Positions 60,874-64,000 of a stretch of 64,000 nucleotides of DNA are shown piece by piece; the stretch's first letter is position 1, and each line of letters begins with the position of its first letter. Both the position numbers and the translations under genes were made by a program. This stretch comes from Pleurocapsa sp. FMAR1. Its GTDB lineage: Bacteria > Cyanobacteriota > Cyanobacteriia > Cyanobacteriales > Xenococcaceae. Location of the stretch: NCBI RefSeq assembly GCF_963665995.1, contig NZ_OY762512.1:2542001-2606000 (forward strand), given 5' to 3'. The notes beneath the pieces were generated by a model, which ran no database searches, was not told where the DNA came from, and was given only the letters and a program-made list of their open reading frames with translations.

Positions 60874-61029
60874 ATTCAATAGCTATTTAACGCGAGTTCG
60901 GGATAAGAAAGAGACAAACAGATAAGCTGAAATTAACCATAAATCAGTATTTGTCTATCTCATGTTTATTAAAGACAAAATTATTTTGTTCGATTGGTGA
61001 TGTCTTGATTCAGTCGCTTAAAGTTGAGG

Positions 61030-61320
61030 AATCCGCCCAAAGCGCTTCTTGTTCAACAAAGGCGCTTTGCCTTATGTAGCTCAACGGAGGGAACCTCCCT
61101 TCGGGTTCGTGCCTTTGCTCAAGTCGGGGAACCCTTTTGGCACTTTGACGGGCGGTATAAACGTCGCAGCAAAGCTACGACGACACGCCCTCCTCAACGG
61201 GTCACACAAAGGCGCACTTCCGCATGTGCCGCAACGCAAGTGCCTCACCACCGCAACTGCTTCACCGCAACGCTATTGAAAAGCATTCCCTTGCAAGGGA
61301 ATGCTAACGGGTGTTGAACC
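61030..61320. repeat. Long copy of the GC-rich interspersed repeat, with a 24-bp perfect palindrome
   Basis: The 290-base segment is the longest copy in the window. It includes AAGCGCTTCTTGTTCAAC, CCCTTCGGGTTCGTGCC, AAGGCGCTTTGCCTTATG and GGCGGTATAAACGTCGC. It ends in a perfect 24-bp palindrome (61282-61305) beginning AGCATTCCCTTGC. Several frames stay open across it but have repeat-like, protein-unlike composition, so no gene is called. The rest of the gap, 60874-61029 and 61321-61490, shows nothing further. Confidence 0.75.
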
Positions 61321-61490: not shown

Positions 61491-61583
61491 ATGAATTTAT
61501 TGAGTGGATTAATTGCCTACTCTCACTGTTCTAAAAAACCCTCAATCGCAATTGATAACTTTGCTTTGCCCGCTTCTGGTTAA
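61491..61583 (+). CDS. Possible 30-residue peptide; shares its start with the gene at 63971
   Basis: An ATG at 61491 opens a 30-codon frame, MNLLSGLIAYSHCSKKPSIA followed by IDNFALPASG and a stop. Residues 5-13 (SGLIAYSHC) nearly match the start of the right-edge gene (GGLIAYFHC), because 26 bases are shared with one difference. It has no clear ribosome-binding site, unlike the right-edge copy. It is either a truncated copy of that gene's 5' end or a short peptide gene. Confidence 0.3.
   Translation: MNLLSGLIAYSHCSKKPSIAIDNFALPASG
61504..61529 (+). repeat. Left copy of a 26-bp direct repeat flanking the SurE gene
   Basis: GTGGATTAATTGCCTACTCT and the following bases are identical at 25 of 26 positions to 63975-64000. 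The two copies are in the same orientation, about 2.45 kb apart, and enclose the GC-rich SurE gene. Both are read in the same frame as part of a coding sequence. Confidence 0.75.
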
Positions 61584-61715
61584 GCTGAACTCGCGTTAGT
61601 TAATTCCTAAGCTATGAGATTTGAACTTCATTTTATCGTTGTTTAAAACACACAAAAGTTGCATTATCACTTTTGGCATAGGACTCAGCTGTTTTTCAGC
61701 TCTTCATATTTTAGT

Positions 61716-63518
61716 TTAACTCACGTCGCCAAGTAGCGCCCCTGCTCCTGGCAGACTGCTGCCAATAGCCATCGTCGTCTCGTCAAACACGGTGGGGTCG
61801 CCGAACTCTAGTCCTAAAATATCGGCAATAGCCTGAGTGTCCGCCAAACCAGCATTGTAGTTGCCGTCAAGCGGTGTAATTGTGACCCTGTCAGCGAGGA
61901 AGTTGGAACCCTCGCTGTTAGGGTCGTCGGAAAGAACCGAATCCTCGAATGTAAAGCCGAAGGTGTCCGTGTTTCCTGGAAACGAAATCAGCTCAACGCC
62001 GACATCGAGCGCGGTAGCCTCGTCAAGCTTAGTGAAGGCAACGTCTTCGAGGCTGCCAGCAAGCGGGACATTGATATTAAGACCGCTGTCGCCTGTCAGA
62101 AAGTCCCCGTTAGCTGGTGCTGTTTCGAGCAGTGAGTCAATCACCTCGGTCGAGATGGCAGCTGCATTCTCAAACGCCGACTCCGTGCTTTCAAAGGGCG
62201 ACGACGGAAGCTCTGTCGACACAGCGATCGCAGGAATGTCGTCGTCAAAGATGGAAGTCACCACTGGAGCGATCGTTGCCGACGTGTTGGCTGTGATGCC
62301 AGTGCTAGGACCAGCGCCGACGCCCGAGACGACGAGATCTGGTGCTTCCTCCGCGAACACTTCTGGCAGCAGCACATCTAGACCGCTCGAGAGCGTCGTG
62401 TTCGGTGTGGCGTTGACGGCGAAGCTTCCAGGGGTGAACTCCTGAGCCGCCCAAGGTCCAGAAATTGTAAGTGCCGTACCCTCAAAGCTCTGATCGACGA
62501 GAGGCGCGATGACCGTGACGTTATGACCAGCTTCTAGCAGCGCGTCTCGCTGCGCGATGAGACCAGACGAATCAAAGCCGTCGTCGTTGGTCAGCAGGAT
62601 ATTAAGGGCTACATCGGAATCATCTTTCTCGTTGAAGACATCAGCGAGACGAGCCTCGAGCGTCGCACGGTCAGATTCTGAAGAGAACCAGTTGCCGTCG
62701 ATCGCCGACACGGTAATCCGATCGAGTAGAAACTGCGCGCCCTCTGAGATTGCGTTGCCAGACGATTCTTCGACGGGGATGAAATCGGATGCAAGAAAGA
62801 TTGGATCTTTGGAGTCTGGGATGTCAAAGAATTCGGTTGGTGTGCCAGATGCCCCTGGTGGCTCTACCTCAGTCGCGTCGGGATCTAGAACGATCGGAAA
62901 CATAGCCGTGGCTTCTTCGTCGATGAGCGTCATCGCTACGCCATCGAGGGTTTCCGATTCTGGCACATTAATTGAGAGACCGATGCCCTCTGGCAGGAGC
63001 GGCGCGCCTTCAGTCTGAGAAGTTTCGAGATCCTTAAGCACCTCGACCACGAACCCAGCAGAGCGCTCGAAAGCAAGATCGGGGTTCTCATTGTCGGCAG
63101 CCGACACTGCGATCGCCGGTAAGCCTTCAAACAAAGCGGCAACCGCGCCGTTGACCGTGCCTGAGATATTATTACTCGTGCCGATGTTTTCGCCCGCGTT
63201 CGTACCTGAAATGACGACGTCGATCGCCTCCCCAGGGAAGATCGCGCCGAGATCGGCTAACTCGAGTCCTGTCAAGACCGTTGGCACTACTGCGGCGTCA
63301 ACGGCGAAGCTGCTGGGTCCAAATTCTTCGGACGCTTCGATCGTAAAGGAGCTGGTCAAGGCATCTAATCCGCCGAGCGTGCTGCCCTGCGCGCTCTGCT
63401 GGGACTCTGGAGCCACGACCGCCACGTCGTGCCCAGCTGCGACAAGACCGTTAAATAGAGTTCCGATTCCGTCTGCGCCGATTCCATCGTCGTTAACGAG
63501 AAGGATGTTGAGAGACAT
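61716..63518 (-). CDS. Tandem SurE-like protein: two 5'/3'-nucleotidase modules, second degenerate
   Basis: The start is ATG at 63518 (MSLNILLVNDDG), giving 600 residues; the frame extends further upstream without support. Module 1 (1-290) has the SurE metal site NDDG (9-12) and SGTNAGENIG plus SGTVNGAVAALFEG (104-132). Module 2 (305-570) has NDDG (311-314), but the asparagine site is SGVGAGPSTG and the SGTV motif is lost, so it is probably inactive. SurE dephosphorylates nucleoside monophosphates; single copies are about 250 residues. The protein is very acidic. The gene is much more GC-rich than all neighbours, with G/C-rich third positions, which suggests recent transfer. Confidence 0.85.
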   Translation of the reverse strand: MSLNILLVNDDGIGADGIGTLFNGLVAAGHDVAVVAPESQQSAQGSTLGGLDALTSSFTIEASEEFGPSSFAVDAAVVPTVLTGLELADLGAIFPGEAIDVVISGTNAGENIGTSNNISGTVNGAVAALFEGLPAIAVSAADNENPDLAFERSAGFVVEVLKDLETSQTEGAPLLPEGIGLSINVPESETLDGVAMTLIDEEATAMFPIVLDPDATEVEPPGASGTPTEFFDIPDSKDPIFLASDFIPVEESSGNAISEGAQFLLDRITVSAIDGNWFSSESDRATLEARLADVFNEKDDSDVALNILLTNDDGFDSSGLIAQRDALLEAGHNVTVIAPLVDQSFEGTALTISGPWAAQEFTPGSFAVNATPNTTLSSGLDVLLPEVFAEEAPDLVVSGVGAGPSTGITANTSATIAPVVTSIFDDDIPAIAVSTELPSSPFESTESAFENAAAISTEVIDSLLETAPANGDFLTGDSGLNINVPLAGSLEDVAFTKLDEATALDVGVELISFPGNTDTFGFTFEDSVLSDDPNSEGSNFLADRVTITPLDGNYNAGLADTQAIADILGLEFGDPTVFDETTMAIGSSLPGAGALLGDVS

Positions 63519-63970
63519 AGCCGTCTTCTTTACTATAATGTTTTTAATAAAGCAACTTAATTCAGTTGCACAGAGTTTAAAACACAATGATTCCGAATCA
63601 AGCCGTTTTGTCTTTCAATTAACGTCCACAACGCCAAATGTTAAAGACTAATAAAAAAATATCACTGCCTGATTAAATCTAAATTAAATTAAGGTCAAGG
63701 AAAAATAGAAATATTTGTATAGAGCTATATCCCTCTTCTGCCAGTTTCCGAGAATAAAAAGCAGTAAAAGCAAAAATTAGCCATCGGGAAAATAGAAAGA
63801 AAATTGATTCATGATAGCAATTAGTCGATGAAAACCAACCAATAAAGAACCCTAAAAGACTAGCTTCGTATCGCAAATAAGCAGAACACTAGTAAAAAAA
63901 CATAGTTGATTATATAATCAATTAAATATAGAAAGAGTTAATTCCTGAGTTAGACAAGGCAGGAGTTTCA
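63519..63970. other. Intergenic region, 452 bases
   Basis: AT-rich DNA between the leftward SurE gene and a gene beginning at 63971. A hydrophobic frame of 65 codons is open on the minus strand (63876-63679) but has no ribosome-binding site and is not called. The abrupt composition change lies at about 63530, close to the SurE start. The promoters of both flanking genes must lie here. Confidence 0.5.
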
Positions 63971-64000
63971 ATGGGTGGATTAATTGCCTACTTTCACTGT
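63971..64000 (+). CDS. Start of a gene running off the right edge
   Basis: ATG at 63971 is preceded at the right distance by AGGAG, the best ribosome-binding site in this part of the window. The first ten codons read MGGLIAYFHC. The last 26 bases repeat 61504-61529. No family can be named from ten residues. A real gene is likely from the ribosome-binding site. Confidence 0.5.
   Translation, partial: MGGLIAYFHC
63975..64000 (+). repeat. Right copy of the 26-bp direct repeat flanking the SurE gene
   Basis: Identical at 25 of 26 positions to 61504-61529, same orientation. It may extend beyond the window edge. Confidence 0.75.

Follow-up and report, generated by a model that had tools for sequence, protein, structure and literature searches.

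The gene examined here encodes two SurE modules in one stand-alone chain, the second with an altered active site. In our preferred interpretation, to which we give a probability of about 0.4, it is a horizontally acquired, free-standing member of a subfamily that otherwise occurs in tandem within giant multi-phosphatase proteins. Module 1 would be a metal-dependent phosphomonoesterase (acting on nucleotides, perhaps on short polyphosphate), module 2, which lacks the metal asparagine, would be a dead partner that completes the SurE dimer within the same chain, and phosphate starvation would switch the gene on through a putative Pho box in the AT-rich upstream DNA. The role suggested by the domain company of modules of this type, together with the Pho-box match, is the scavenging of organic phosphate. 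The name "exoprotein-type tandem SurE subfamily" was coined in this analysis, and "the window" is the whole 64,000-nucleotide stretch of DNA analysed, whose numbering is used throughout (Table 1). Away from this locus the host genome, a single contig of 5,429,540 bases, also carries two ordinary SurE genes, whose open frames span 266 and 226 amino acids.

Table 1. Features of the tandem SurE locus, in window numbering
Feature	Position	Strand	Remarks
Direct repeat, downstream copy	61496..61605	.	110 bp; 90% identical to upstream copy
Tandem SurE gene	61716..63518	-	600 aa, stand-alone; open frame, two PF01975 stretches, foreign GC3 and codon use
Module 2	61719..62609	-	aa 304-600; degenerate; PF01975 match at 62022-62600, 110.2 bits (curated cut-off 22.1); SurE-like fold predicted
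Module 1	62610..63518	-	aa 1-303; metal and SGT residues retained; PF01975 match at 62925-63506, 123 bits (curated cut-off 22.1)
Pho-box-like site	63670..63699	-	three 8-bp repeats, 3-bp linkers; 152-181 nt before ATG
Direct repeat, upstream copy	63967..64000	.	continues 76 bp beyond window end, to 64076

Two SurE modules and their active sites

The initial annotation described an acidic fusion of two SurE modules, and both descriptions are borne out. On the minus strand an intact frame of 600 codons begins with the ATG at 63518 and reaches its stop at 61716, and PF01975 is matched twice in the protein, where SurE is the sole Pfam family passing its cut-off; Pfam and NCBIfam both recognise each module (PF01975, TIGR00087). 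The predicted protein has a pI of 4.05, a net charge of -89 and no cysteine, and its lysine and arginine together make up 1.7% of residues, versus 2.9 to 7.4% across 13 relatives (described below). Strong acidity is common among exported RTX proteins. No signal peptide was recognised in the protein by eye and no RTX repeats were found by Pfam at E<=1, and we count both results against a scavenging role outside the cell; export itself is conceivable, with the balance tipped somewhat against it.

Module alignments place NDDG, Ser42, SGTN with Asn107 (codon at 63198-63200), and SGT at residues 119 to 121 (63156-63164) in module 1. The annotated retention of the metal and glycine motifs in this module stands for these residues, but not for the GTPADC loop, whose aspartate is missing. 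This aspartate is absent from all 27 exoprotein-type modules that span the loop (both window modules and 25 of the relatives) and present in 37/37 canonical SurE rows. In our reading of the alignment the loop with its aspartate is a defining SurE feature, and by that reading module 1 departs from SurE at the loop and is not fully canonical. The canonical rows were chosen by a pattern requiring NDDG and SG.[NS].G.[NS], passed by 37 of the 53 loci tried, and the intact asparagine of these rows is partly due to this selection because the pattern required it.

Module 2 was said to keep NDDG and to have lost the active-site segments, and the alignments agree. NDDG and the serine are retained, but SGVG places Gly401 (62316-62318) in the position of the metal-ligand asparagine, and SAT at 413 to 415 (62274-62282) replaces SGT, so that no complete active site was seen in this half. 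In the cited passages of PMC8475336 the asparagine is strictly conserved, coordinates the metal, and orients the water. Each residue checked, the metal asparagine included, is kept in 25/25 modules of the 13 relatives (12 tandem and one single). Judged by these residues, module 2 is very probably catalytically dead; it is homologous to SurE, yet on the same residues it is not classed as an active SurE enzyme. The giant proteins keep two intact sites per pair, whereas the window protein would keep one and use its other half as a partner.

According to the parts of PMC3567009 cited here, SurE is an intertwined dimer whose active site sits close to the interface, and activity is lost in mutants with a disturbed swapped dimer. 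Because activity is tied to the swapped dimer, a tandem could build the dimer inside a single chain, and the suggestion of the initial annotation that one half is structural is plausible since SurE acts as such a dimer. We regard a covalent pseudo-dimer as evenly poised between yes and no. Structure prediction used alignments of 19 SurE sequences for the full-length protein and of 17 plus module 1 for module 2, taken from 24 located SurE stretches. The full-length alignment is weighted toward module 1, where a 24-row trial put 217 to 225 residues of each row. The full-length model (pLDDT 62, pTM 0.48) has formed cores, weak C-terminal parts, and an unreliable mutual placement of the modules, and its best PDB matches are SurE across about 200 columns. 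The module 2 model (pLDDT 73.6, pTM 0.77) aligns with solved SurE over about 270 columns, with a TM of about 0.7 by target length and an rmsd of 6 to 13 A. Because the alignments consisted of SurE, the SurE-like fold of the models is support and not proof. With one predicted live and one predicted dead site in a single chain, the gene would be a natural split of catalysis and dimer support, and the contribution of each half of the SurE dimer thus becomes directly testable by single-site mutants.

Tandem relatives in giant proteins and a plasmid-borne counterpart

Relatives were sought in even draws of 388 genomes from the class and 388 from the order, together with a family search, and 13 genomes with close SurE relatives were recovered. 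Eleven of the 388 genomes of the order draw matched at E<=1e-23, our own included, and ordinary SurE is near-universal at weaker scores (384 of 388 class-draw genomes at E<=0.001). Twelve of the 13 relatives are tandem, and all twelve lie inside large proteins of other cyanobacteria with frames of 1249 to 4421 amino acids, in which both modules are intact; no stand-alone tandem SurE was present among these 13 genomes. The claim that the tandem is a new arrangement consequently fails: tandem SurE already exists in other cyanobacteria, and the unusual part, as judged from these proteins, is that the gene stands alone and that its second half is degenerate. Among the genomes searched, this form is intact only in the present gene. 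Neither tandem SurE nor SurE within giant phosphatases was the subject of any of the titles listed from the open-licence literature, where "sure" is a noisy search word. Yeast Pby1 is likewise a SurE fusion, but with a different partner, a tubulin-tyrosine-ligase domain, and in a different kingdom.

Another phosphatase or phosphodiesterase family accompanies SurE in all 12 tandem relatives. The partners are Phytase, Phytase-like, PhoD, GDPD, and Exo_endo_phos in various sets, with Phosphodiest in one genome (G630), and 5 of the 13 relatives have RTX repeats that score above the cut-off. The largest proteins, of 4223 to 4421 amino acids in the related genomes G363, G289, and G704 (L067, L068, and L106), combine Exo_endo_phos, four Phytase-like stretches, Phytase, tandem SurE, PhoD, and two GDPD stretches. 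The lone single-module relative, a 507-amino-acid protein in G510 (L107 87-1607), carries SurE and C-terminal RTX repeats and is apparently an exported single-module SurE. The window protein resembles the tandem SurE of the 12 cyanobacterial giants in clade, two-module order, a similar loop signature, and acidity, and some of the giants also have Pho-box-like sites. It differs in being a SurE pair alone with a degenerate module 2, whereas the giants have two intact modules, other phosphatase domains, and often RTX repeats. With the SurE 5'/3'-nucleotidase family at large (PF01975, TIGR00087) it shares the fold, NDDG, and the serine, and in module 1 also the metal asparagine and SGT; it departs from that family in having two modules per chain, the second without the metal asparagine, in missing the GTPADC aspartate in both, and in being extremely acidic and stand-alone.

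In a tree of 65 rows, for which long-branch warnings were given, the window modules, a Skermanella sequence, and the modules of the giants form one clade (99/95) apart from the 37 canonical rows, and module 2 pairs with the Skermanella sequence at 100/100 support. By homology, the gene almost certainly belongs to the exoprotein type. Seven of the open reading frames compared were selected with a pattern that demanded one SG[IVT]N[EA]GE in each protein. The SurE family is described as one of intracellular nucleotidases in the cited part of PMC8475336; a tandem clade inside phosphatase-rich giants, some with Pho-box-like sites, would point instead to phosphorus scavenging.

The Skermanella sequence is WP_228421667.1, a gene of the S. 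mucosa plasmid pSM-1 (L066 12016-12765) that encodes 249 amino acids and is annotated as 5'/3'-nucleotidase SurE. It matches residues 2 to 54 (57%) and 386 to 579 (52%, E 4e-55) of the window protein, while it lacks about 331 residues of the pair, and its C-terminal end lies near the same place. The altered motif is of the same kind (GPSTGI.AN.SA), with the metal asparagine replaced by aspartate. A stop codon lies just ahead of the frame, no ATG, GTG, or TTG precedes NDDG, and an ordinary start is thus missing; the gene is probably a remnant of the same tandem protein. Since this remnant shares the degenerate motif, degeneration of module 2 is older than the window copy, and the stand-alone form probably is as well.

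Further searches covered other groups and mobile elements. No window-type gene was found at E<=1e-22 in 385 alphaproteobacterial genomes; these were drawn evenly from a larger group that contains no known positive, so the result is weak evidence of absence. A scan of named genomes returned 28 loci (E 7e-19 to 3e-5), which were presumed to be ordinary single SurE, and in the order of G214 (36 genomes) the only matches were in G214 and G109, both known already. As for carriage by viruses, an IMG/VR scan gave nine pattern matches and no relatives; nine phage records matched, none over more than 80% of the query; and among 98 plasmid records Skermanella alone covered at least 80%.

A candidate Pho box upstream of the gene

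We formulated the Pho pattern after inspecting the present upstream region and compared it with published descriptions afterwards. In the portions of the sources cited, the published cyanobacterial site is a repetitive PyTTAAPyPy(T/A) (PMC3264485), a Pho box has at least three repeats of 8 bp with 3-bp linkers (PMC1906773), and a spacing of 5 bp is given for the repeats (PMC6713934). The three-repeat form at no more than one mismatch occurs at one place in the 5.43-Mb genome, and this is upstream of the tandem SurE gene, with one mismatch; when the 500 bp upstream were shuffled 200 times, no site as good arose. The exact two-repeat form is found once in the window, again upstream of this gene and on the same strand (0.12 expected; 12 of 100 shuffles had one). 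When two mismatches are allowed, the genome has 10 further matches and a reversed-pattern control gives 10 in all, and because matches and control are equal at this level only the best site is informative; no recognised Pho genes were seen by eye beside those 10 matches.

Four of the 12 giants have an upstream site with three or fewer mismatches, compared with 1 of 71 neighbouring open reading frames (Fisher p 0.0012; 0.007 after removal of one near-identical genome); the upstream region scanned for G363 was 220 bp only. The other eight giants have 5 to 9 mismatches, and thus no good Pho box. In the host genome, 2 of 81 other open reading frames reach three mismatches, one encoding a 1289-amino-acid Phytase-like protein and the other without a recognised phosphate link. 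We note that the host genome has two large Phytase-like proteins (L139 5408-9274 and L140 3102-7583), one with choice_anch_I and the other with GDPD, and that L139 5408-9274 has a Pho-box-like site at -160 with three mismatches; no PF02333 phytase was found in this genome. Taking the pattern matches together, Pho control of the tandem SurE gene is a reasonably likely prediction, and the AT-rich, host-like DNA around the site suggests that the gene has come under host control.

Genomic setting and alternative explanations

The GC-rich, foreign composition noted in the initial annotation is confirmed. The gene has a GC content of 0.564 and a GC3 of 0.605, with its two module halves alike, versus means of 0.397 and 0.313 (maximum GC3 0.408) in the 38 other non-overlapping window open reading frames of at least 150 amino acids. 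Codon usage is likewise unequal to that of the neighbours, with a CAI-like score of 0.477 that is the lowest of 39 (0.704 +/- 0.026 in the others). The reported shift in composition at the gene ends holds insofar as GC drops to 0.32 just upstream and 0.33 to 0.42 just downstream, but a second GC-rich patch, which is non-coding, lies at 61001-61300 (GC 0.49 to 0.58 per 100 bp). Part of this patch (61097-61268) matches a second genomic site (L140 1168-1320) with 86% identity along 172 bp and is probably a dispersed intergenic repeat downstream of the gene.

A search at E<=1e-22 did not find the tandem SurE gene in any of the genus's 12 other genomes, two of which are only 81 to 82% complete. It is flanked by 110-bp direct repeats with a start-to-start spacing of 2471; the genome holds no further full copies of the repeat, and two partial matches only (52 to 53 bp at 81%). 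The neighbouring gene beyond the window end, starting at 64207, is PRK-like and is the only one of the neighbours with a match in each of the six sister stretches; the one other match is weak (33% identity, L126). Of the DNA before the PRK-like gene, only about 67 bp are shared, with 11 of 12 sister genomes, and this sharing ends about 60 bp from the upstream 110-bp repeat. In the two sister genomes whose open reading frames were listed, an mraY-like gene precedes the PRK-like gene, both names being our assumption. Read from these comparisons, the synteny break at the tandem SurE gene marks a rearrangement point. Horizontal acquisition of the gene is highly probable.

A recent acquisition could also be simple decay, with module 2 merely losing function and the whole gene having no role in the host. 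Consistent with this are the absence from all 12 other genomes of the genus, the codon use unadapted to the host, and the remnant-like state of the nearest relative, in Skermanella. However, the 600-codon frame is intact, and the Pho-box-like site within host-like DNA suggests integration into host control. Moreover, Skermanella also has the degenerate motif, with a protein identity of 53% and identities of 0.64/0.73/0.37 at the three codon positions across 191 codons. These values fit past purifying selection and make the motif old and constrained for some time. We consider decay unlikely.

A second possibility is a sensory module 2 that regulates module 1 by taking up a ligand, such as phosphate or a nucleotide, in its altered pocket. 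Module 2 retains the NDDG carboxylates and the serine, and has the motif GPSTGI.AN.SA in common with Skermanella, but this motif is known from two sequences, one of them remnant-like, and a sensing half seems quite improbable. Still bolder would be to see here a lineage of mobile, free-standing and half-dead SurE pseudo-dimers that passes between cyanobacteria and alphaproteobacteria, its dead module carrying a conserved motif of its own and serving as a built-in allosteric sensor that tunes the live phosphatase in phosphate starvation; we think this very improbable. Least probable of all is an origin by truncation, with the gene a fragment broken off a multi-phosphatase giant of the host line: modules of the same clade do sit in giants, and the family search (2 of 27 genomes matched at E<=1e-22, our own and G391) found the G391 copy within a protein of 2111 amino acids, but the gene flanks have no remnants of other giant domains when compared with six giants (best E about 0.6), a stand-alone form with nearly the same end also occurs in Skermanella, and the composition is foreign, unlike the host.

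We note that in one sister genome (G405, L120) the PRK-like match is broken, with an internal stop codon and pieces in shifted positions, possibly an error of the draft assembly.
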